DNA from: Ectocarpus siliculosus
Lineage: Eukaryota; Sar; Phaeophyceae; Ectocarpales; Ectocarpaceae
Reading direction: 5' to 3'
DNA: 34,643 bases
Assembly: GCA_000310025.1 (NCBI GenBank)
Contig: FN649728.1
Span: 3,632,958-3,667,600 of the forward strand
Shown: positions 1,925-23,700 of the stretch, one piece after another
How positions within the stretch are numbered: the first letter of the stretch is position 1
How the letters are laid out: every line of letters begins with the position of its first letter
The notes under the pieces: generated by a model
Databases searched by the model: none
What the model was told of the DNA's origin: nothing
What the model saw: the letters and a program-made list of their open reading frames with translations, nothing else
Made by a program: the position numbers and the translations under genes

Positions 1925-3019
1925 GTGTTCGGTTAGTTTTCTCCGCCAAACAAAGCAGGACCGTTAAACCCATCTATTTCAATGCAGCTAGTGGCTGTGG
2001 ATGGGCAAGCGTGGTGCTTCTGTCGTGATATGTAGAATGCGTTGACACGTCCATGCAACGAAATGGGTTGTCGCGTGTTTCACGTACGGATTGCATGACA
2101 GCAAACAAGCGTTTATTTCCGCATACAAACGTAACATGAGGCTACAGAACCACAAACTGGATAAGTTTTGGCGGCTGCGCGCAGAATCTGCACAAAGTAC
2201 TATGATGGGCCGTGACTGTCCGGTAGTTGCGGCGCTAGGGGTATGGGGGGCATATTCAGGAATTGAAGCATCGGACACTTCCCTGTTTGCCCTCTAGCAG
2301 TTTCGAAGAAGCGGCGGTCATGCAGCATCTATGAAGAAGGGACTACTTCAACACTTCTCTCCATGTCACGTTTTTGCGAGCGTGTTCATACGCCCGGTGT
2401 TTACTTAACACCCCCCACGTGGACGATAGTTAATAAAAGCCGTTAAAGTGCACATTATCACCGTTAACATGTCTATCACACGCCGTACTAAGTCATGCTA
2501 ACATGTATACCGTTTTTTCCTTTGAGGGACGTATGGTAATATCAGCACGACGGTCGTCAACAAGCTGCTACACTATTTGCTAGATACCGTACGAGAGATG
2601 GAGACCATCCAGGAGAGACAATGAAGACAGGTGAGCGCAACTCACCTCCATCACAGTGATTCCCAGCCCCGAGGAAACGGTCTACGCACAGGGGCCTCCA
2701 GCAAGTTGTAACAATCACCGAACAAGCAGAGAAGGAAATCACTGGTTACCGCGAGGTAAAAACCAAGAGAAGGGGACTCTCCCATCTTGGCCGCGGTCGA
2801 TCTTGGAGCTGAAGTCGACGTGGGAGATGGTCCGATTGAATCTCTTGGGCTCTCCTCCAAAGAAGCGGCGGCCGTTGATGGCGGTGCGCAGGGAAAGTCC
2901 TCTGGGGCGTTGTGGGTCCCCTCCTGGTGTCCCCCAGCACTCTCCACCTCCGCTACACCCCCGCAGACTGCTAACCGTCCGGGCAGCAGGCTCGTGGCAG
3001 TGGAAGCGCCAGGTTGCGC

Positions 3020-3208
3020 TCAAGCAGAAAATGATGGTTGGGCAGCAACTCCGATGCCCTGCTCCACTTCCCGCTTGGTAAGCTCCTCCCAATCTCCATC
3101 GGGGTATTCCACCCGCCAATACGGGTCGCAGTAGTCGTACACCTTGGCCTTGAACACTTTGGACTGTCCTTCGGCGCTAGTAAAGGTCCTTCCCACGACG
3201 GTACGCAG
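3020..3208 (-). CDS. C-terminal tudor/chromo-like module of the integrase
   Basis: In the frame +1 to the integrase, minus 3208-3020 reads LRTVVGRTF, then KVYDYCDPYWRVEYPDGD and WEELTKREVEQG, ending at a TGA at 3020-3022. The pattern of aromatic residues and 'VEYPDGDWEEL' resembles small beta-barrel (tudor/PWWP/chromo) modules at the C-terminus of retroelement integrases, which are thought to bind chromatin. One frame change (equal to a one-base insertion) between about 3250 and 3180 separates it from the integrase. There is no Met, so it is not a separate gene. The fold is inferred from pattern only. Confidence 0.6.
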   Translation of the reverse strand: MRTVVGRTFTSAEGQSKVFKAKVYDYCDPYWRVEYPDGDWEELTKREVEQGIGVAAQPSFSA

Positions 3209-5252
3209 GGAAACTTTTCCAAGGCTCGCTCCCGGGACGCCACCTCGTGTTGTCCTCTTGTGGGTCTCCCGGTGGCCGAGGTTCTGAGTCGGGGTGATGG
3301 AGTTCCCAAAGCGCGTGGAAGACGTCGAGCTGTAGCGGCGAAAAGCTGTCGCGTGCTTCGTCCTCGGTGATCCTGCTCGATTGTATCCTATCCTGGTATC
3401 GACCTCGATACTCCCATGCCCACGTACCAGCGCTCTTGGCCTGTCCTACCCTCCGAGCTGTCACGGTGTAGAGAGGTACGGCGACCACGGAGGTGTCGGT
3501 CGAACCCAAGGAAGCCGACCAGATGAGGTGGCTGAACTCGTCCTCGCAGGGCAGTTGGAGATGTGTGGGACGCCGGTGGAAGGGCTTGATGTCGGCAGCC
3601 ACTACTCGGCGTTGTCGGATGCGTCGTCCGTTGAGTTGCACCGTGAAGCACAGCCGAGCCAAGAGAACGTTGACGACAGTCCACGGTCCCGTGAAGTGCT
3701 CATGTGCCAGTTTCGGGTGCAGGCTATCTCGGTAGAGGGGGATTGGGGTCTCGTGGACCAGCACCAGGTCTCCTATCTGTGTCTTGGCTCCCGGTGACTC
3801 ACAGGCGACCCTGGCGTTGTGACGTTCCCGTTGTTTGGTGAGTACCAGAATTTCTTGCGTGAGATGATGTTGGTCCTCGACCGTTCTCTCCAAGCCTTGG
3901 CCGAACGAAGCGGTGTCCAAAGGTTGGGCGAAAAAGTCGACGTGACTGCGTGGCGGCCGACCAAAAAGTATCTGGTACGGCGAGGCCCCTCCCGGCAGGG
4001 CCGGATCGGGCGTAACCCGGTGGATTCACGTCGCCACGGGAACGTAGTCGTCCCACCGCTGGGGCCATGCTTTGCACAGGAGGGAGAGGGCTTCCTGCGG
4101 CCACCCTCCCATCCGTTCCACCGCTCCCTGGGCTCTGGGATGGTTGACCGGGCCATTGTCCAGCGACACCTTCAGCCAGTTGCACAGGTGTTGCATCACG
4201 CGCGCAATGTTCTCGCTTCCCATGTCCGCGCGGATGGAGAGTGGAAGACCAAAGGTGAGGAGAAGCTCCAAACGTTTGCTGCTCGCGCTTAGGGCGTCCT
4301 TGTGCGGGAGAGGGAAAGCGGCCAAGAACTTCGACGCGCTGTCCACTACAACCAACAGGTACTGGTTCCCCTTCTCTGACTTGACCTTCATATCCTGGAT
4401 ATCTATTTGTAGAACCTCCCCGGGTTGAAGAAGGCGAGCGGGCATCATGGCGAGTTGCGTACTCCACGCCCGCTGCCTCCGGCGGCACGGGCATGACAAG
4501 AAGTAAGCGCGGACGTCCCGCTTCAGCATGGGCCACTGATACTTCCTCTCGATTAGCAGGGTCGTCCTTGCGGTGCCCGGGTGCCCGTACATACCGTGGA
4601 TGAGTGCCAACATTCCTGGTAGTAGCCGACGTGGAACGGCGATCGCGTACAGTCCTCCCCGCGGTGCGTGCCACAGTAGGTGGTCGTCCGCGAGTACGTA
4701 GTCGGTGTCGTCGCCTTGGTCTCCCTCAAGCATAGCTTCGATAGGCCCCAGGGTCGGGTCCCGCTGCTGTGCCTCCGCGAGTTGCACAGGGTCCCGTAAG
4801 ATGTTCTCCATCTGGTATAAGTTCGCCGAGAGTCCCCGACGCAGTTCCGGTGTGTCCAGCCGTTCGTGGTCTCCATCGTGGCCCTCAGGGGCCCCCGTTG
4901 ATTCCTCCGTGGTCCCCGGTGGCGAAGCAGATACCGGTGTCGTGACCGACTCATCCTCTTCGCGTTCCTCCCGGGGCACAGGCGTCGATGTTCGGGCTGG
5001 CGCCGGTGCCATACGTCTGTTCTCCTCCAGCGACTCGGGTGCCGAGGGCGTGTGGGCGTTCCTAGCTGGCCCCTTGCCTTTCCGGTTAGCTACCTGTCTT
5101 CTCCTCTCCGGTAGTACGGCCACTTCTGTCGAAGGAGGAACCTCTGTAGTCGTCTGCGGCGCTTGAGCTTGGCGTGCCGTACGTCGCGTGACCGCCGGAG
5201 TAATGATGAATCGTGGCTCCTGTAGGGCGGTGTCGACCGCAGAATCAGCGGT
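3177..5252 (-). pseudogene. Ty3/gypsy-type integrase with GPY/F-like module, interrupted by a TGA
   Basis: Numbered from the ATG at 5123: a Pro/Thr/Glu-rich linker (1-100), an integrase zinc-binding region with His176 and His181 (HGMYGHPG) and Cys211/Cys213, then the catalytic core with Asp241 (LQIDI), Asp300 (RADMGSEN) and Glu336 (QGAVERMG), a D-D-35-E arrangement. The zinc pair is C-x-C rather than C-x-x-C, so this subdomain may be damaged. The TGA at 4026-4028 follows residue 365. Downstream in the same frame come ASPYQILFGRPPR and HFTGPWTVVNVLLARL, typical of the region after the core and of the GPY/F module of Ty3/gypsy integrases. The frame ends at 3177. Confidence 0.88.
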
Positions 5253-6254
5253 CTACGTGAAGGTGTCGTGTAAGCTGAAGAGAAGGTCGTCGGCTAGGCT
5301 GTCGCGTGTGTCCCTGTTCATCGCGACTACGCCACAGACGCACAAAGCAAAGAACACTTCACGCATCATCGGTGGTAGGGTAAACTCTTCGAGTGCCCAG
5401 GCCGCGGCGCTGGTCCTGACAGTGGGTGGACTACGAAAGTCGTCTTGTGCCGTGGTGAGCTTCACGAAGTCCTGCCACTGCACATCCTGGGCTGTGTCCA
5501 AAGTTCCGGCGTCCTCTGGGTGTGCCTGATAGGCCGCCGGCGGTGGGCGACGTCCCATGATGTGCACGTGGGTGATGGCCGGGGACGGTGCATCAGCTGG
5601 GAAGATCGCTTTCTCGCCTGGCGGTCTCTGCAAGAAGTAGTGGCCGCCCCGATCGAGGAAAGAACCGATGGTGGGTGTGGTTGGCGTGGGTTGCTGGATG
5701 TGATGCTTCCACTTGGAGAGGTTTGCGGAGAGCTTCGCCATGGCGTCCTCAGGTTGTCGTTTGCACGCTGCGATGAAGACCCTCTGCTTCCGTGTGGGTA
5801 CGCCCACGTCGACAGCTGTCAGCGTGGCCTCCTCCACAGAGCATCGGTGGCGCTCCAGGAGTGGCCGTAAGGTGTCCCACCACTCGGTGGTCCCCGCAAA
5901 TCTCACCGGACACTCCACGATCAGGAGTCGTGCTCGGCTCGACAGGAAGATGTCGATGATCTCCGTGGCTTGCCTTGCTGCTGTGTTGCCCGTCCGATCA
6001 GGATCATACCGGCGACAGGCGTTGCCGATGAGGATCTCCGGTTTGGCGCCGGTGACAGCTTCCCTGCATCGGGGGCTAGCTAAGGGGGCTCGTAGCAGTT
6101 GGACCCCTTGGCCCCACGCGTTGGTTCGCGCACACTCCAGCGCTGTCCATTCGGGCTCGATTGCTGCACCTATCTGTAGCACCTCCCCCAGGGCCAACAG
6201 AGCACCGCCAGCTCCACATCCCCAGACAGACGCACGCCCTCGGGTGCCTCTGAG
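5253..6254 (-). CDS. Cytosine-C5 DNA methyltransferase-like domain in the retroelement
   Basis: C5 methyltransferase motifs occur in the family order. Motif I is SVWGCGAGGALLAL at about 6230-6189, the S-adenosylmethionine loop, followed by an acidic residue in AAIEPEW. Motif IV is LIGNACRRYD with a Cys at 6017-6015. Motif VI is LIVECP, with the Glu kept. Motif VIII is DVGVPTRKQRVFIAA. A motif IX-like stretch is DAPSPAITHVHIMGRR and a motif X-like end is LPPMMREVFFAL. The catalytic Cys and motif VI Glu are present, but the usual Pro-Cys-Gln reads Ala-Cys-Arg and the usual Glu-Asn-Val reads Glu-Cys-Pro. The spacing between motifs VIII and IX is short, so the target recognition region is small. 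Motif I lies upstream of the first candidate start, so this is a domain of a larger protein. Activity is uncertain. Confidence 0.75.
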   Translation of the reverse strand, partial: LRGTRGRASVWGCGAGGALLALGEVLQIGAAIEPEWTALECARTNAWGQGVQLLRAPLASPRCREAVTGAKPEILIGNACRRYDPDRTGNTAARQATEIIDIFLSSRARLLIVECPVRFAGTTEWWDTLRPLLERHRCSVEEATLTAVDVGVPTRKQRVFIAACKRQPEDAMAKLSANLSKWKHHIQQPTPTTPTIGSFLDRGGHYFLQRPPGEKAIFPADAPSPAITHVHIMGRRPPPAAYQAHPEDAGTLDTAQDVQWQDFVKLTTAQDDFRSPPTVRTSAAAWALEEFTLPPMMREVFFALCVCGVVAMNRDTRDSLADDLLFSLHDTFT

Positions 6255-6588
6255 TCAAGGCGCGACGCACATCCTCGTAGGCCAGACATCTCTGGTGGTC
6301 CATCGGGCCCGGTGTCTCCGGCGTGTGTTGTAGGGCCCAGACAACCGTCAGGGGTAGCATAGGTCCAGGGTCCACTTCCGTCGCTCCCAGAGCCGCTAAC
6401 GAAACACCGTCGAGCGTTGGCGTTCCTGTCCCCGATCCGCCGCCGCCGTCAGTGTCGCGCCGTGGGCCCGGGGAGGGGTCGTTCATGTCCTCCCGTGCCA
6501 GACTCTGGAGGTGGACACCGTCGAACATTGGCCCTGTGGGTTCGTGACTGCGTCCTTCGGAGGTCGTGGTGTCGTCTTGATCGGTATC
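6076..6588 (-). CDS. Leader ORF of the retroelement, function unknown
   Basis: This frame opens after a TAG near 6589, with a first ATG at 6528. It encodes an acidic, Pro/Gly/Asp-rich, probably disordered stretch, then a more structured part containing PLTVVWALQ and RCLAYEDVRRAL. The structured part points straight at methyltransferase motif I, which lies one frame away. A +1 shift near 6255-6225, equivalent to a one-base insertion, would join them. The last 50 or so codons of this frame, which overlap the methyltransferase, look like shadow sequence. It may be the N-terminal extension of the methyltransferase or the end of an upstream polyprotein module. Confidence 0.4.
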   Translation of the reverse strand, partial: DTDQDDTTTSEGRSHEPTGPMFDGVHLQSLAREDMNDPSPGPRRDTDGGGGSGTGTPTLDGVSLAALGATEVDPGPMLPLTVVWALQHTPETPGPMDHQRCLAYEDVRRALTQRHPRACVCLGMWSWRCSVGPGGGATDRCSNRARMDSAGVCANQRVGPRGPTATSPLS

Positions 6589-7107: not shown

Positions 7108-7175
7108 TGTGGAGACCACCTTCATAAAGGTAGAAACTCCCCAACGTCTGTCGAGGACGATTCCCTCTTTTCACA
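7108..7175 (+). repeat. 5' terminal repeat of the TRIM
   Basis: 68 bp, identical to 7487-7554, with TG...CA ends. Confidence 0.92.
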
Positions 7176-7486: not shown

Positions 7487-7554
7487 TGTGGAGACCACCT
7501 TCATAAAGGTAGAAACTCCCCAACGTCTGTCGAGGACGATTCCCTCTTTTCACA
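7487..7554 (+). repeat. 3' terminal repeat of the TRIM
   Basis: 68 bp, identical to 7108-7175, directly preceded by the polypurine tract and followed by TCAC. Confidence 0.92.
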
Positions 7555-10358: not shown

Positions 10359-13300
10359 GTAGTAAGCGTCAGGTTGTATCGCGGGTATCTTTTTTCATCT
10401 GGATTATGACTGCTTATTTCATCTACGGCGAGACATTGGCGGGGGGGTTACCGTGTTTTGCATGCGTAGCAGCGGTTAGGCCATTGACCATGCGTCCACG
10501 AGAGGACGGAGAAATGGGGGGGGGGGGGAGTCGGAAGCGGGCGGTGTTTATGTTGCAGAATTTTCGACTTAGTATCATTTGCAACTTTGTTTGTTCGATG
10601 AAATCAGCGGCGCACGCGCGCGCGCGAACGAAAGGGTCGACTCCTTTTGTACAACCAAGTACGAAAGCCCTGTGTGATGAACTCCTTTTGTACAACAAAA
10701 CACAACGCCGTGTGTGCTGCTGTTGTGGCTGCTGTCATTCTCACATGAATCTTCCGTCCCCGCTCCCCAAACTTTGATATGGACGTCATGTGCACGAAAA
10801 GGAGCCCTGCGTCCGCGACAGAGTTCGACACCGACTTGCTGGTGGTTGGCTGCGGCATCGCCGGCGCCTCCGCGGCCCTCCAGGCCGCCAGGCTGGGCAT
10901 GACGGTGACCATGCTCTCCTCTGCCCGCAACGTGGACGACTGCAACTCGTTCTGGGCCCAGGGCGGCATCATCTACAAGGCCGAGGTGCGGGTCTATTTT
11001 GTTTTCTGGTCGGAAGACGAAGGTGGTCATTTATTTTAGCTTTTGGCGTTGATTAATACTGCTGTTGTAGTGCGTTCGCAGGGGTAGCTGGCTCCAGCGG
11101 GGTTCTATGCGCAATGCGTGTGTTTCGCTATTTTTCGAAACGACCTGGCTGGGTGCCAAGGGGTCTTTTTTCTTTCTTTTGCACAGCGGATGTGCTGCGC
11201 AACGAGCTGGTGTCGCACCTCACGTCTGCGTGGTGTTACTGCTACGCTCGCCCCCCACCCCCCCCTCTGGGCGGTTTGATCCATCGACACGACCCACGTT
11301 ACACTTCGTTCCTGCACTTGGCGGTATGGCGCCACCACGTTTTGTGAAAAATTCCAGACGTTCTTGATTCCCTTACCCAAGAACCACCCCACGCCAACCC
11401 CGAAAACTCCTAATTCATTCTTCAGGACGACTCGCCGGACCTGCTCGCCTCGGACGTCCATACTGCGGGTGCGGGCCTCTGCAACGATCCCGCGGTCATG
11501 AAGCTGGCCGAGGAGGGGCCCGGCAGGGTGGAGCAGATGCTTCTCCGCGGCAGCTCTGAGGTGAGAGACGGAGAAGAGAGATTGGAAAAGAAGGCGGTTA
11601 CAAGACAGAGGGGAGGGGGGAGAGGCTTGCGGCGACGACAGCGACGATAGCATGTGAAAAAATTCTACTACTAGCAGGCGAGACTGCCAGGCTGTGTTTC
11701 TTGTGCACGGCGGGACCGAAATCTAAGTCTCACCGCTTTGTATGCATGTATAGCCCCTTCGTACCGTCTCAAGTCCCCCCTACGCCCCCCCCCCCCCCGT
11801 AACTGGATAGGTGCCGTTCGACCGAGATGCCGATGGCCGCTTGGCGCTGTGCCTCGAGGCTTCTCACAACCGTGCTCGCATCATCCACTGGCGTGACGAG
11901 ACCGGCAAGGCCATCACCACGAGCGTACAGGTAAGAAGTTTTTTTTTTTTTTCTTGTTCTTGACTTCAAATCAGCGCTCACAGCACTTTTATAGTGCCGT
12001 TTATTCCAACCCGTGGTCACACAGAAGGGCCTCTCATTCCCCTCCCCTCCTGCGGTACGAAGTTAGATACGAATGGGTCACCTAGGTAGAATGCAAGTGC
12101 CGTAGGCGGTGGTCGCGGCGAAGAAGCAGGGACTAGTCAAAACTGGCAACACGAAATCAATGATGAAGGCAGGAGATGTGGGAACTAAAAGGTTCAGGAC
12201 AGCTGTTGATCGTTTCAGTTCCCCCCACCACCTGCGACCTCCGCTGTGTTGGCTCTCCACTTTGCTTTCCCCGGCGCGGCTCGGTTGCCACGCAGAGAAA
12301 TTTGTCGTGATCCTCCTTTTCCCCTGAACCTTGTGTTGTTCTGTCCCTGGAAAGCATGTCCGCACAGTTTCGGTTACTAAACTTACGGATGTCTACACCG
12401 CACCTGAGTCTCCGTGCGAACAGCCGAGACATCGTTCTGCTACACAATGCGCACACGTGGAACACATCTGAGACACGCCTGTCTGCGTGCACCCCCTTTC
12501 TCTGTTGTGTGACGTCACCAACGGACAGGCCGCAGCCGCGCAGCACCCGAACATCCGCGTGATGACGAGCACCACGGCGGTGGACCTGGCCCTCGCGGCT
12601 GGCCAGTGCGTCGGCGCGCACGTTCTGGTCGAGGTACAGTATGTTACGTGTCCACCTTTACCCCTTAGGATGCGCCGAACCGTCGCATCTCTCTCTTGCC
12701 CGGGCCGCCGCCCTGTTTTGGTCCCACTTGTTTTTGTTGTTCTTACGAGTGTTTTTGGCGTTTGACTCTTTGTTCGAGGGCTCTGGGCCCCGAGCAAAAG
12801 AATGTGCGTGGGTGTACCAGGTTTGTTGGCTGACCTGTGTGCGTTTGCGCGCGGGCGGCTACACCTTCGCGTCGTACCGCGCCACCACTCCGTGTGGGAA
12901 AGCTACGTCCCTCTTTTTTTTTGTGCGGCTCGTTTACAAGCCCGGCGGCCCCGAAACGCCTACGTTAGTTTTGGTTTGTTTCGAACCGCCCCCGCCCCCC
13001 GCGCGCGCGCGCTCTTCCTGGGTGCGCTCGCATACAAAAATTATTCCGCACCTGCGATTGGTGGCTCTCAGGATTCCGGCATGAACGATGGCAGCGGCAT
13101 GGGCCGCGGCGGCGGCTACCACCTGGAGACCATCCGCGCGCCGGCGACCGTCCTCGCGACGGGGGGGCTCGGCGACCTGTACGCGCACACGTCCAACCCC
13201 GCGAGCGCCAAGGGCGCCGGCTTCGCGATGGCGCTGCGCGCGGGAGCCGTCCTGTCCGGCATGGAGTACGTCCAGTTCCACCCGACCACGCTCCACATCC

Positions 13301-15514
13301 CGGGGCAACGGAGCTTCCTGTTGACGGAGGCACTTAGGGGGGAAGGCGCGAGGCTCGTCGACCGCAGGGGGCGCTGCTTCGCCAAGAACTACCACCCGGA
13401 CGGCGAGGTGAGAACACGGACGGACGTCGTGTGTTGATGCCTGTTCGGGATCACTGCTACGGCTGCTGCTGCTTGTACTATCGCATGTGGCGTTTAATTT
13501 TTGCATGTTTTTTTTGTGTGTGTGTGTGTGGGCGGGGGGGGGGTGCCGGTGCTGCAGGTGATTGTTCGCCTATTTATTTGAAAGGACACCTTAGCCGAAA
13601 GGACGTCTTTCTGCTGAAGTTCACCCAACGCGTTTCTCGAGCTCCGAACCCCCCGTTTCTCGCGTCCCTGTCTCTTGCCTGCCTGCGCGATACACGATCT
13701 GCGGCCATGTCTTTAGATCGCTGCGCATCATGTGTCGGTTCGCGTCATGTTTTTCGGCGTTCTGTTTGCTCTTCCTCCACCTTCGACCGAAGAACTGACT
13801 TTGTCGCCCTGCCCTCCTCTCACTCCGCTTCCTACGTGCGTGTGTCGCTTCCTCCCCCCCCCCCTTACTACTTTTTTACGCAATAACCAGCTCGCCCCGC
13901 GGGACGTCGTGAGCCGGACCATCCTGAGCGAGATGCGCCTCCAGGGGGCCCCCCACATGTACCTCGACATCTCGCACCGTCCCGCGGACTGGATCCGGGG
14001 CCGCTTCCCTTCCATCTACGAGCACTGCATGAGGCAGGGGCTCGACATGACCGTGCAGCCGCTCCCGGTCGTGCCCGCGGCGCACTACTTCTGCGGCGGC
14101 GTCGCGACCGACCTGACGGGGCGGACGACCGTACCTGGACTGTTCGCTGCCGGTAAGGATAACACGGATGACTTGTCACTTGCTTCGAAGTGGTTGAAAT
14201 TTTGTCCGTGGGTGCCATATAAGTATAGATGGAATAATTGTTGGGGGTTGCATGTGAAAAAGAAAAGCATGTTCTGTGCGCGTTTTTTGCGGGTTGTGGA
14301 TCTCGCTTGGTTGTCTTGGGGTCTCTATCCAAATGTGCGGCTCATGTCCTCGCTGTAGATGAGGACCGGATCGCCACTGCTGTCTTTTTTCCCACGCGTG
14401 CTAACGCGCACACCCAAACCACGGCCCGCTTCTCGTTCCGCAGGGGAAGTCGCCTGCACCGGTCTTCACGGCGCCAACCGCCTGGCGTCGACCTCCTTGC
14501 TGGAGGGCCTCGTCTGGGGCTGCTCGATCGCTGACCACCTCGCCGACCGCGGCAGCAAGGACTCCAAGGACGGGCTGGCGGCGTCGGCCGACATGGGCGC
14601 TCTCGCGCCGCCGAGGGTCCCGGGGACCGCCGCGGGCGGGGGCGGCCCGGTGGCGTCGGCCAAGGCTCTCTCTTCCGCCTGGAAGGATCTCAGGTGTGTC
14701 AAGAGTGTGTCGTGTGTTATTTTGTTGGCATGGACCGCGCTGCCTAACCGGCTGGTCAATGAAAATACGTCAGTCTCAGTGCGGCTGAAAACACAACTTG
14801 CGTGGGTGTGTATGTAGGCGGCACAGACCGCGCTCACTGACGTAGTGGCCAATGAGAAGGTGACGCCCCCGTGTAGCAAAAGTGCGAATGTTGCAAGAGC
14901 GTCTGGTTCGGTCATCCGCGGGATACAAACGGGCACGCGTGTGTCTGTACTTTTGTGGTTGCGAGGTCCACGCTGACCCGGTCAGATCGTAGCGACAAAA
15001 AATAGTAGAAAGTTCGTTCGAAGACCCACAGCTCAGCGTTACAAGAGTAGACCCCTACACCGTATTTCCTGTTTTAGAGGCTACCGCTTTTAGCACTGGC
15101 TACGAAACGTTAAACTGAGTTCCGGCAGTCAACCCATCAAAGTTCAGACGTGACCACACGAAACCCATCACAGCAGTAGTTTCTGACGTGTCTTTGCTGC
15201 GGTGCCCCCCCCGCCCCCCGCCCCCGCCCCCCCAACGACGATGCGGCGGCAGGACGATCCTCTGGGAAGACGTTGGCGCCGTCCGCAGGAGCTCTTCCCT
15301 CCGCGAGGGCGCCCAGCTCCTCTCGGACCTGGCCGACCGCTGCAGCCGCCTGTACGACACGTCCGCCCTGTGCCCCGAGACGGTGGAGCTCCGCAACGGG
15401 GTGCAGACGGGGGCCATGATCGCCGCCGCCGCCGCGAGTAACGAGTGCTCCGTGGGGACGCACTTCGTCGAAGAGGAGGACGAGGAGGACGACCACGGGC
15501 AAGCCAGGGCCTAG
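10030..15514 (+). CDS. nadB: L-aspartate oxidase, 9 exons, 660 aa
   Basis: Flavoprotein oxidising L-aspartate to iminoaspartate, which quinolinate synthase uses for de novo NAD synthesis. Exons: 10030-10358, 10802-10985, 11426-11560, 11811-11930, 12529-12633, 13072-13407, 13891-14152, 14444-14693, 15253-15514; all junctions agree in phase. Gly126, Gly128 and Gly131 (VVGCGIAG) bind [12 protein letters not shown] follows at 158-166. His361 (QFHPT), Thr376 (LLTEALRG), Arg407 (LAPRD), His468 (PAAHY) and Arg503 (GANRLAS) have the same spacing as E. coli His244, Thr259, Arg290, His351 and Arg386 as I remember them. The C-terminal helical domain contains [10 protein letters not shown] and ends in an acidic tail. 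The first 110 residues are an extension, Arg-rich and almost without acidic residues at the start. The second exon could begin at 10805 instead. It is convergent with the next gene. Confidence 0.95.
14727..14880. repeat. Dispersed repeat family A, copy in intron 8 of the aspartate oxidase gene
   Basis: The stretch from GGACCGCGCTGCCTAACCGG to GCGGCTGAAAACACAA matches the repeat array in the last intron of the reductase gene (30278-30702), sharing 'TAACCGGCTG', 'CAATGAAAA' and 'CGTCAGTCTCAGTGCGG'. A second, more diverged copy follows at about 14822-14860. Confidence 0.75.
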
Positions 15515-17171: not shown

Positions 17172-17336
17172 AGCGACGGGAAGAGGCGACAAATACGTTT
17201 GCATGCGTACACAAACGCGGAGAGCGAGACACAGCTGACGACAACGTGGGTCGAAGCGACGGGAAGAGGCGACAAATACGTTTGCATGCGTACACAAACG
17301 CGGAGAGCGAGACACAGCTGACGACAACGTGGGTCG
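17172..17336. repeat. Perfect tandem duplication, 83-bp unit
   Basis: 17172-17254 and 17255-17336 appear identical, starting AGCGACGGGAAGAGGCGAC and ending GACGACAACGTGGGTCG. Identity implies recent duplication. The unit is not a multiple of three and no gene spans it. Confidence 0.9.
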
Positions 17337-17745: not shown

Positions 17746-20700
17746 CTATATGGTAGCGTCTCCGCAAAGCATCTCGTCCACCAGAGGGATAGCATCCTGC
17801 ACGCGGAACACGCAGCAGGTCGGTGAAAGACATGATTAGACGACAAGGAAAAGGGGAGGGTTGAGACAAGCACGAGGCACAATCCGTGAGGATGGCTAAA
17901 AACCCTGCTGCCCGACCCACGTTTACATGATAAAACGGTTCTTCCCTGCTCTACTCTACGCATACGATTTTCGTGGGTCAACCAGGCTGCACAGAAACCG
18001 CTGTTGTCAGCCGCCATCCTACGCATCCTACGCGCATTTGATATCCTGCACCCACTCCACCGGGGTTACTTGTTCCTGTTCCGGAATATATTCCAAGCAG
18101 CCCTGTTATTGCACCGCTTATGCATACCTGTTCTTCTTCCTCATCGATGAGCAAGTAATTTCCCGGCGTATGCTCCTTCGCCAGGATCAGTATCGGCTCC
18201 AAGAACCGCACGATCAAAAACTCCTTTCGAAACCAAAAACAAACGAGCAAGAGCGGCAGCGGCATCGTCGAGCAAAACCGGAGGAGAATGATTCAGGGGT
18301 CGTGCTATATGGTGCTGGGGTCGGAGCTCTTGGCGCACACTCATTTGTTTTATTTCGAGGCGAGGGGGAAGACAAGGACAGGGTTGGTTGTGACAAAAAA
18401 GAAAATACGCCAATTTGTGTACGCACCTGTCTTGTGTCGCTGCGTCGGGGTTTGGACAGGAAACAGCTACAGTCCGGGCGCAGGCCACGAAGAGCACTTG
18501 GGTACTATCGAAAATAAAGCGCGACAAATCTGTGACTTTTGGCATCCAGGAACTGGTTCCCGGAACGCTTCTTCAAGGAGGTGCCCATCAGTCCGGTAAT
18601 CGGCTTCTAGTCAAAATCCAAGATATTTGGAGCCGTAAAAATCGAAAACGACCTTCGGGCTTCGAAAGTGTTCATGTCCAATGGGAAATCGATAGAGGGC
18701 TGAACCTGACCGGTTCGAACGGAGCTGTTTGGTTGAGCTACATGTAGTTGGAAATTGGGTGAGGCAGGCGGGCATGGTGTTGCTGGGCATCATCGCAACA
18801 GACAAAATAGCAGTCTTCATCCAGCCCCTCCCCTTTTCGCCAAGGCTCCATCCACAGCATGCCCCTCTCTCCCCCCAAAAGGTTAAAATATACGCACCTC
18901 CCCTTCCAGCAGAAACTCGCCCAGAAGCTCCACCTCATCCGCATCCTCTTCGTCGTCGTCGTCGTCCTCCTCCTCCTCCGCCTCGCCCGCCTCCTCCTTC
19001 TCCTCCCCCTCCCCCTCGGGGTCGCCGCCCTCGGCCTCCCTATCTTTAGCCTCGTCTACCAGCTCGTTCAGCCCCTGGACCGTGAGGGTGGTCGGTGTTC
19101 TGCGAAGGAAAAACGGGATGGGGGGGGGGGGGTGGGAGTCCCGTGATGTGGCGCAAAGAAACACCGGGGTGGGGAGATGGGGGGAAACGGGCGTCCCGTG
19201 ATATGGCGAAAATATGAAGAAGACACCCCGTCAGGTCAGGATCGGGGGGCAAACGATGAAGAAAAGCGTTATTCTGCGCCGGTTTCCAAGCATGGCGAAA
19301 CAGGCATCGGTTTCGCTCTACATGTATGCGTACGTGGCGCCGTTGAACAACGCGTCCTACTCAAAGAAGCCCGCAGGGAAACAGCTTTCGTGCTTCAGCA
19401 GAGATAAGGTTTAAGTGTCGAGCATGGTACGATCTCCGCTGCGCACGTGAAAAGGACAACAGGCTGTGGGGGCGAAAACACACTACAACTGGGACAATTA
19501 TAGCTTGAGCCAGCTCGCACATGATCTTTTGTTTCTGGGCCTCCGAACATAGCTGTGACGCATACTGTGGGATAAAAAAAAACACTAGAACGGCAAATCG
19601 AAACACGAAAAAAACAGGCGGGAAGGCGACAGATGACCGGACCTAGGTTAATACCAACGGAAGAAAGAGCAAAAAAAAAGCATGAAAAGCAGAGGCGGAA
19701 GCCGGCACAGCGCCACAATTTTTCGACCTCGACGACTCGTGTGTCGCAAGAAATGGCATCAGCTACCGAGCAGTACCTTAACAAGGTGACGCCAGGCCCC
19801 AGATCCGCCACGCACGCCTCCGCCAGGGGGAAGAGCTCGTCCATGATGGGGTCGTCGTTCGGCACGGGGCTGACCTCCCCATTCTCGTCGAACGCGATGG
19901 CCACCGCGGGGTCCTGAAGGCAGCGGCCGCCGAGGCGTTCGGTGCGAGAGCAAGCAAGCGATGTGAAGCAAACCAGATAGGAGCGTGTGTCGGGATTACG
20001 GGGCAAAAAAGCGTCGCGCGAGAGAGATCCAAGCAATGAAACACAGCGCATACGAGCGTGTGTAAGGTACAGAGCAATGAAGCACGGCAGATACGAGCGT
20101 GTGTGTTAAGTTTTATGGAGCGTGTGCCCCAGGGTGGGCGAGGGCCAGCAATGAAGCGCGGCAAGTGCTATATAGAGGGAAAACGACACAACAGGGTATA
20201 CCCTGGTCGAAAAGCGACACACCTTGGTACACAGTCCTTAACAGCAGTAAATGCATTCATATGATTGGTCAGCGCCCAATTTCACCCCGGTACGTCCGAA
20301 AAGGTGCAGGGTATACCCTGCTGTGTCTACTTTTCTCACCAACTGTACCCTGTTTTCGGAAGTGTACCCTGACCTGACGGGAAATAAGACCCATTCATCA
20401 ATCATTCCCCCCGCAGGAATCTTCCCAACTCCTTTTCCTCTCCAACCATGGGGTACCAAACGGCGAATCTTCCCACCCAATAACAACCATGGCAACGCGG
20501 CAGGAATCAGTTTCCGCCCCTGCCAAACAACACCAACCATCAACTCTTCCGCTCTAAATCAACAATGAATGGTCGGGCACTACCCCAGCACAGTTGTTCC
20601 GTTTGGAAACATACATGCACACGCGTACAATAATACCCCGTGCACCACTGCTTGCTGCAGTCTATATGCCACATGCACGGGTCACGCTACGAAAGCGAGA

Positions 20701-23700
20701 CCGATCCAGCATGGTTGACATGCATATATATATATGCATGTATGGACACAGCACTACACGGGTAACGTTGGGCGCCGCCACTCCCTCTTGCCTGTGCCGT
20801 GTGTGCGTGGGTGTGTTGTCTGTTGTGTCTCAATTGCGATGTGTTTCTTGCTTGAACTACTACTACTACTGCTGTAACAGCAGCGGTCGCGCTTACCAGC
20901 CGACCAAGCCGACCAACCAATCAATGTATGCAGTAAGAAGACGTCAGGCTTCAGCGGGATGAGCCGATGAAATACACCGCGAGCACAGGGAGGGTGATTG
21001 AGTTGGACGACACAGCAGTTGTTAGCACTCGCTCCTCCTTCCATGATTGATGTCAAGGGCGTGTCTGTGTGTGGTGTTGCTGCCTCTCTCCTCCGCCCGC
21101 TCAGCGCAGCGCCACACATCATGGGCACATACATGCATATATATGCATGTCAACCATGCTGGATCGGTCTCGCTTTCGTAGCGTGACCCGTGCATGTGGC
21201 ATATAGACTGCAGCAAGCAGTGGTGCACGGGGTATTATTGTACGCGTGTGCATGTATGTTTCCAAACGGAACAACTGTGCTGGGGTAGTGCCCGGCCATT
21301 CATTGTTGATTTAGAGCGGAAGAGTTGATGGTTGGTGTTGTTTGGCAGGGGCGGAAACTGATTCCTGCCGCGTTGCCATGGTTATTATTGGGTGGGAAGA
21401 TTCGCCGTTTGGTACCCCATGGTTGGAGAGGAAAAGGAGTTGGGAAGATTCCTGCGGGGGAAATGATTGATGAATGGGTCTTATTTCCCGTCAGGTCAGG
21501 GTACACTTCCGAAAACAGGGTACAGTTGGTGAGAAAAGTAGACACAGCAGGGTATACCCTGCACCTTTTCGGACGTACCGGGGTGAAATTGGGCGCTGAC
21601 CAATCATATGAATGCATTTACTGCTGTTAAGGACTGTGTACCCAGGTGTGTCGCTTTTCGACCAGGGTATACCCTGTTGTGTCGTTTTCCCTTATATAGA
21701 TATGCAGGTAGAACGCTACCGTGAGAGTGAGTTCCTGAAGAACCTTTTCGTCGGGTTCGTCTTACTGGAGTCTGCTCTACGCACGGCTGCCATTTCGTCA
21801 TGTTCGTCTCAGTCAAGTGCTGATTCGTGATTTTCTTCTTGGGCGTGTTCGTCTCAATCAAATGCTGACTCGTGAACTACTTCTTCGGCGTGTTCGTCTC
21901 ACTAACAGTGCTCTGATTCGTGTGTCAAGACGGACGAACCTTGGGGAACGCGACGAGGTATCGTTCTCCGCCCACCACCGCGATGCGCTCGGCGTAGCAC
22001 ACCAGCTCCTTGCCAGTCTTGGGACACCCCAACGCCACGGGTTTCGACGCCAGCTCATCTGAAACCTGAACAAGAGGGATGAAAAGTGTTCGTCCGAAGG
22101 GAAAAAAAACATACCAGGTGTTACCTAGAAAGCATCGGCGGTGGTTGTACTACATAATGGAAGCACACGAACAGAGACACGTGTAGTGCTTCGAAGTAGT
22201 AAAGAGGACGTCAAGTGCAACGACACAAAAACAATAACGACCGGCTAGAGGGATGCAGAGGAGAGGGGTAGAGGGGACGGCTGTCGAGCTCAACATGGGG
22301 GCGACAAGAGAGGGACACGGCGTCCCCGGCTTTGGTGGGATGTTCACATGCGAATCGGCCTTCGGCAAGGCTCCATCACGCGTGCACCACACGCCGAAAA
22401 CGGAATGACGGCCTACAGCACGTCCGCAGGCGGCATGAGGGCACACGTAATTGTACCCCCGAAAGAGCTACGAGAGGCCTTCTGTACCAAAAGGAGGCAC
22501 GTGTTGCCATTTTACCGGCGGGATAGGTACTCCCTCATCATTTTTTTCTCATGTCTTGTTTGAAGGGGGGAGGGGGGGGGCTCGTGGCTCGTGGCCGCCA
22601 CGCAGGAAGCAACCTAACCAGCAGCCTTGACTATTTTGCTGAAACCTGCTACACACAGGCGGTGAGACCAGGCTCTTCTTCCATTCGGGCCTGATACGTA
22701 GACTGGGCGCGTCCTAGAACCTGACGACAAGCAACAAAATCACACGCCAAACGAGACCATAGTCAGGCAAAAGACTGACTGCAGTTGAAAAAACACGCCG
22801 GGTCAGGGCCCCAAAAACAATTCATCGTGATTTTTTTGGTTGCCGTACCTCCTCAAGGGAATCCTTGACGACTTTCTTCTTCTTCATCGTCAACGCCCCA
22901 CCCGCCGCCCCTCTCCTGTCTCTCCTCGCGTAGCCCACCCCACCCCGTCGGCTGCTGCTGCTGCTATGTTGACACGTAGAGGACGACCACCAACCGCCTA
23001 CTGCGCCGCACGTGGGCCGCCGCGAGGTGGGATTGACGAAAAACGCCTATTTTTTGTGGAAATCGGATCCAAGCAGATTCCCGCGCGAGTGAAAGAGGAA
23101 GGGGGGGAGGAAGGAGTGGGGTAAAAATCAGCAGTGCACTGTAGACTGCCCTGTTGCGTGAGGATTCCACCATGTAGGCTGTTTGTGGTACTTGGATATG
23201 AGTCCGATCTGTGCATCCTCTGTGGGGGATACGCGTATGGGAAGTATGGGTGTGATGGGTATGTATGCAGTTGAGGTCCAAGTGCGGGGCCTCCGGGTGA
23301 GCACACGGCGGTGTGCTCCCGGCACTTGCCTGAGGGGCTCGCGTGGCGGATACCAGCTTGCCTGAGGGGCTTGCGTGACGGATATATATAATACATGGTC
23401 CTTTTTCATCTGCTGTTCCTGGGATAACATAGTACCCAGTCTCAACACCACAGACCGCTGAGGGCGGCAGTGCACACTAACACGATATATCGAGTGGAGC
23501 CTAGCATGGTGAGTCCGAGTGGAGCCTAGCATGGTGTGTGNNNNNNNNNNNNNNNNNNNNNNNNNNNNNNNNNNNNNNNNNNNNNNNNNNNNNNNNNNNN
23601 NNNNNNNNNNNNNNNNNNNNNNNNNNNNNNNNNNNNNNNNNNNNNNNNNNNNNNNNNNNNNNNNNNNNNNNNNNNNNNNNNNNNNNNNNNNNNNNTGGGT

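Follow-up and report, generated by a model that had tools for sequence, protein, structure and literature searches.

The 34,643-nucleotide stretch of DNA analysed here (contig FN649728.1; hereafter the window) contains, on its minus strand, a degraded pol remnant in which a C5-methyltransferase-like (MTL) domain lies upstream of an integrase (Table 1). The locus is a dead copy belonging to a lineage of Ty3/gypsy-type long terminal repeat (LTR) retrotransposons. The open pol frames of three other copies (C98, C147 and C30) align with it by tblastn from 6558 to 3023, that of C98 reaching 2913, and DNA similarity to copies of one group of these elements, clade A, continues to 2929. Pfam matches and translation bear out the preliminary description, which had placed such a domain upstream of an integrase in the same frame: the MTL open reading frame (ORF) region (6254-5253) and the integrase ORF (5252-4026) do share a frame, although in the window copy a TAG stands between them. 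At least two stops (TAG and TGA) and at least two frameshifts have accumulated. The copy is both truncated and broken, since the linker and the tail lie outside the MTL frame and the match to pol stops on its 5' side at about 6558. The window copy yielded no LTR pair, and an LTR-like stretch nearby is probably a separate insertion because its orientation is opposite.

Table 1. Features of the pol remnant and its surroundings in the window
Feature	Position	Strand	Evidence or remark
Degraded, 5'-truncated pol of Ty3/gypsy-type element	2929..6558	-	linker, MTL, integrase, Tudor-like tail
RNase H-MTL linker remnant	6226..6558	-	frame differs from MTL; polA 401-506, polB 651-760; ORF 6076-6588
MTL domain	5319..6236 (about)	-	profile evidence; fold from relative P0012
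Motif I-like GCGAGG	6204..6221	-	translation; GxGG aligned with Dcm
Cys of altered motif IV (IGNACR)	6015..6017	-	at or beside catalytic Cys; alignment and codon reading
Glu of motif VI (VECP)	5913..5915	-	invariant in 9 rows of A1; opposite ENV in Dcm alignment
Arg of motif VIII (KQRVF)	5781..5783	-	invariant in 9 rows of A1; opposite RER in Dcm alignment
In-frame TAG between MTL and integrase	5253..5255	-	pol frames of C98, C147 and C30 without stop
Integrase zinc-binding domain (H2C2)	4476..4637	-	PF17921, E 1.5e-9, MTL frame
Integrase catalytic core (rve)	4137..4427	-	PF00665, E 4.1e-9, MTL frame
In-frame TGA past integrase core	4026..4028	-	translation
C-terminal Tudor-like tail	3023..3226	-	another frame; polB 1736-1804
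LTR-like stretch	2165..2689	+	about 75% identical to C129/C30 LTR

Within this genome (492 contigs, 189.5 Mb), the MTL region matches at least 77 places, a lower bound in which several places are pieces of a single copy. Long open pol frames occur in C98 (1649 amino acids, aa), C147 (1807 aa) and C30 (1943 aa), where shuffling predicts 42, 83 and 108 stops, respectively (means of 300 shuffles). All three frames fuse MTL and integrase, which rules out a separate methyltransferase gene hit by an integrase fragment. The unusual domain order suspected earlier also falls away, because longer copies carry reverse transcriptase (RT) and RNase H upstream of the MTL domain, and these were lost from the window copy by truncation. 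The Pfam order in the longer relatives is RT, RNase H, integrase zinc domain and integrase core, with the MTL domain between RNase H and integrase; RNase H and the zinc domain are 559-707 aa apart in six MTL elements, compared with 87 and 108 aa in two MTL-less gypsy elements (P0014 and P0016). A Tudor domain (PF21743) is matched in four of the six longer relatives, at E values of 9.2e-5 to 0.0068 but with scores short of its cut-off.

The C98 frame begins within RT and that of C147 adjoins a tandem repeat; C30 alone looks complete. Its 635-bp LTRs share 99.1% identity, the target duplication is 4 bp long (GTTG), a primer binding site (PBS)-like stretch, TGGTGAGGCC, comes after the 5' LTR, and there are a purine-rich stretch and, by eye, a protease-like LLDTGA. 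The hallmarks of Ty3/gypsy elements (direct LTRs of the TG..CA type, short target duplication, PBS and polypurine tract) are found in the C30 and C129 copies, and the Pol order RT, RNase H, integrase in copies other than that of the window, which is without the first two. No LTR pair was detected in the stretches fetched for C98, C147, C183 and C26. The gag region of C30 (L033 8274-9998) contains a CCCH-type zinc finger by eye, has a weak Pfam match (E 0.089) and resembles a stretch of the Ectocarpus protein P0009. The C129 element (L038 1486-7804), with 636-bp LTRs that are 100% identical, has lost RT and RNase H together with some of the integrase; it keeps the MTL domain and the rest of the integrase, with stops, has similar copies in C53 and C241, and is a recently moved non-autonomous derivative. 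A 2963-aa frame in C476 is probably an artefact, as the stretch fetched contains 4902 N. The sole named relative with an MTL domain comes from Ectocarpus sp. CCAP 1310/34; none of 36 pattern matches in viral contigs and 45 in prokaryote genomes was confirmed.

Taken alone, the MTL sequence of the window is weakly similar to C5 methyltransferases. It scores 10.7 bits against Pfam DNA_methylase (PF00145), under the gathering cut-off of 22, reaches an E value of 0.019 against the PHROGs DNA methyltransferase, has no NCBIfam match and is modelled poorly (pLDDT, the predicted local distance difference test, of 43). PF00145 matches at all in four of nine members of A1 (best E 0.0081) and four of 12 members of A6 (best E 0.024). 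The similarity of the family as a whole is real: aligned with Dcm and eight phage enzymes it gives an hhalign score of 57.2 (probability 92.9), against 22.9 for the best of 60 column-shuffled controls and 18.7 for the best of seven decoys. A C5 hidden Markov model ranks nine of ten MTLs above all 2000 shuffled sequences, the exception being that of clade C. The C5-methyltransferase fold itself is shown by the confident predicted model of the relative P0012, and human DNMT2 is at rank 2 in a Foldseek search with the MTL model. We consider it highly likely that the element captured a domain with this fold.

Not all of the motifs described at first are equally recognizable. Motif I, the Glu of motif VI and the Arg of motif VIII stand out clearly, motif IV is altered (GNAC for PCQ), and motifs IX and X depend on a structural match that extends to about model residue 447, where model confidence is low. 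Motif I, the cofactor-binding loop of C5 enzymes, is retained as GxGG in the open frames, and none of the nine rows of A1 departs from the Glu of motif VI or the Arg of motif VIII. Motif IV reads GNAC in the MTL domain and PC in the nine C5 enzymes compared. A residue census of the 25 readable loci of clades A and B in this genome, drawn from the 30 best matches and including two pairs that are the same copy, finds the Cys in 22 (exceptions L004, L008 and L015), mostly as GNAC, the Glu in 23 and the Arg in 24, with all three kept jointly in 19. Among outside proteins the motif IV Cys is present in seven of the eight that are readable, P0005 having Tyr; this count excludes P0002-P0004, in which the motif is not covered, and P0009, which is mis-spliced there.

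The history of the MTL domain appears to be that of the element. Trees of RT-RNase H (eight rows), MTL (ten) and integrase (seven) show no well-supported conflict. Among the 28 of 3339 candidates that were scored in a search with the Ectocarpus relative as query, five places (C150, C227, C141, C14 and C156) have open frames matched only downstream of the MTL domain. The one examined, C156, contains RT and RNase H, the shared linker and an integrase-side match without an MTL domain. The best tree sets clades A, B and C as one clade against this relative (support 77/85), which favours a single gain, so that Pol probably acquired the C5-methyltransferase domain once, between RNase H and integrase. 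Loss of the domain in the MTL-less relative may be an alternative, since support is just 77/85 and clade C is closest to it in identity (59% versus 45-50%).

The host offers few other enzymes of this kind. PF00145 has two matches in the genome, in an exon-by-exon search that could miss others, and both are exons of one gene containing PPCQPF and LGIPNSRLRYY stretches, which we take to be DNMT2 motifs. Apart from this presumed DNMT2, no C5 enzyme was detected by the PF00145 search in the host of a retroelement with a C5-like domain. The result fits brown algae, which are described as being without DNA cytosine methyltransferases other than DNMT2 (PMC13076208). A brown algal host is likely on this ground and from the Ectocarpus source of the named relative. 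Reports differ on whether brown algae lack methylation: for Saccharina japonica, with DNMT2 alone, about 1.4% of cytosines are given as methylated (PMC6916402), and a further paper ascribes DNMT1 to early-branching brown algae (PMC12344493).

Our preferred explanation is that the window holds a dead copy of an element whose Pol captured an MTL domain that targets nucleic acid of the element itself; taken as a whole, we judge the chances for and against it to be evenly balanced. Made within Pol, the domain would enter the particle together with RT and integrase and would act before integration. In clades A and B it would most likely bind S-adenosylmethionine and methylate element RNA or cDNA, or form a transient covalent adduct, an activity that is plausible there, since most loci retain the catalytic Cys, Glu and Arg; methylation by these domains falls somewhat short of an even chance. 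In clade C binding alone may remain, the Cys having apparently been lost and the catalytic loop being eight residues shorter. More tentatively still, one may picture a lineage in which ordinary DNA methylation has been lost and retrotransposons keep a non-PCQ C5 fold, the only one detected besides DNMT2, as a Pol module working on their own RNA or cDNA, with one clade restricted to binding.

Several observations weigh against the preferred explanation. PDB sequence searches with the window protein and with family profiles gave no significant match: one profile search listed 3qv2 alone, at E 0.73, and that with A7 ranked a ribosomal protein (0.43) ahead of 3qv2 (0.71) and five HhaI entries (1.9-2.1). 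Ala (once Val) replaces the Pro before the Cys, clades A and B have ExP in place of ENV, and of the two arginines in motif VIII a single one persists throughout. In clade C, the Cys is found at motif IV in none of five loci in an ungapped alignment; with gaps allowed, a Cys can be aligned at this position, so its loss is likely rather than shown. C30, which among the eight copies fetched with 10-kb surroundings is the best preserved, belongs to the same clade. The MTL domain is also under weaker constraint than RT-RNase H or integrase: the median pairwise ratio of nonsynonymous to synonymous substitution rates (dN/dS) is 0.26 (36/36 pairs), 0.22 (20/21) and 0.15 (33/36), respectively, in clade A, and 0.46 (76/105), 0.30 (64/78) and 0.22 (62/74) in clade B, with pairs at dS <=0.03 or saturated dropped, broken copies included and one clade B copy entered twice (L023 and L030). 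The open frames at the five places without a detectable MTL domain indicate that it is not needed for the gypsy life cycle. Finally, CpG is not depleted in element copies (observed/expected 0.85-1.01, with 0.91-1.08 in flanks and 1.02 in the rest of the window), and 5-methylcytosine is negligible in Ectocarpus (PMC12477816).

Many of these points suit a pseudo-enzyme, in which the C5 fold would serve the integration complex as a module for binding nucleic acid or chromatin and no methyl group would be transferred in any clade, as in DNMT3L, an inactive methyltransferase relative. Beyond the altered motifs IV and VI, the undepleted CpG and the state of clade C, such a role would suit the region past motif VIII, where conservation matches that of the core (mean pairwise identities of 0.51 and 0.44-0.49, respectively), and the Tudor-like reader tail of four of the six longer relatives. 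The joint retention of Cys, Glu and Arg in clades A and B, although residues past the Cys vary, and of GxGG in the open frames argues for the opposite, and we regard a pseudo-enzyme as a serious but somewhat doubtful possibility. A DNMT2-like ancestry, with the domain working as an RNA-directed enzyme or binder on the tRNA primer or on element RNA, is improbable; it would be consistent with the Foldseek rank of human DNMT2, the PBS-like stretch of C30, the sole PF00145 gene found and 3qv2 as the best methyltransferase match in PDB, non-significant as it is. We take 3qv2 to be Entamoeba EhMeth, a DNMT2-type protein. A functionless insertion carried by a few copies would explain the weaker constraint and the many broken copies, and is very improbable given open frames of more than 1600 codons in three divergent clades, a history shared with RT and integrase, relatives in other sources and dN/dS below 1.

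Captured methyltransferases are known from other retroelements. In the Ty3/gypsy element KnitGypsy-Dnmt3 of Klebsormidium nitens, too, the Pol frame includes a cytosine methyltransferase domain under purifying selection, but there it is a recognizable Dnmt3 with conserved key residues, and the repeats are DIRS-like (PMC5890265), whereas the MTL domain is under the Pfam cut-off, has an altered motif IV and is accompanied by a Tudor-like tail, and C30 and C129 have direct LTRs rather than a DIRS-like arrangement. SymbioLINE-Dnmt and SymbioDIRS-Dnmt3 of Symbiodinium also captured C5 methyltransferases, and the DIRS enzymes methylated CG in yeast; they belong to the long interspersed element and DIRS classes, conserve key residues and reside in a heavily methylated host (PMC5890265). 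In Ectocarpus, Gypsy-10_Ec32 has a Gypsy Pol with a C-terminal Tudor domain, which the weakly matched Tudor-like tail of the MTL elements may parallel, and a relative in Tribonema; the available text mentions no methyltransferase domain for it (PMC12477816), and it may belong either to the MTL clade or to the MTL-less one. Sola1-1_Ec32, also of Ectocarpus, has a DNA methyltransferase gene, but is a DNA transposon with a separate gene for an N4-cytosine or N6-adenine type enzyme (PMC12477816). Orchid Ty3/Gypsy elements bear another accessory nucleic-acid-modification domain, an N6-methyladenosine RNA demethylase, in plant hosts (PMC9289625). Novelty is limited by a general statement that Stramenopiles are among the groups with Ty3/Gypsy and DIRS elements that encode DAM and DCM (PMC6338049). 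Searches of open PMC text without supplements turned up no paper in which brown algal Gypsy elements are said to have a C5 methyltransferase domain, and the portion of PMC9998398 available does not mention brown algae.

Elsewhere in the window, identical 68-bp direct repeats (TGTGG..TCACA) at 7108-7175 and 7487-7554, about 450 bp overall with TCAC at both sides, look like a miniature LTR element of the terminal-repeat retrotransposon in miniature (TRIM) type. A 566-bp inverted repeat (20176-20741 and 21127-21692; 99% complementary, 385-nt spacer) is a foldback-type element, and a run of N lies at 23541-23695 within an inverted-repeat region. Two exons at 13126-13413 and 13852-14160 match FAD_binding_2 (E 2.1e-19 and 6e-21) and belong to a host flavoprotein gene, and 82 bp are exactly duplicated in tandem at 17172-17336.

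If the host is a brown alga, a strongly diverged C5 fold that Pfam-type searches miss sits in brown algal retrotransposons. The MTL domain would offer either a hidden source of cytosine methylation or a natural series in which the domain is absent, present with Cys or present without it. Such a series would help to ask why retroelements repeatedly capture methyltransferases, and these elements could reveal uses of the methyltransferase fold without ordinary DNA methylation.

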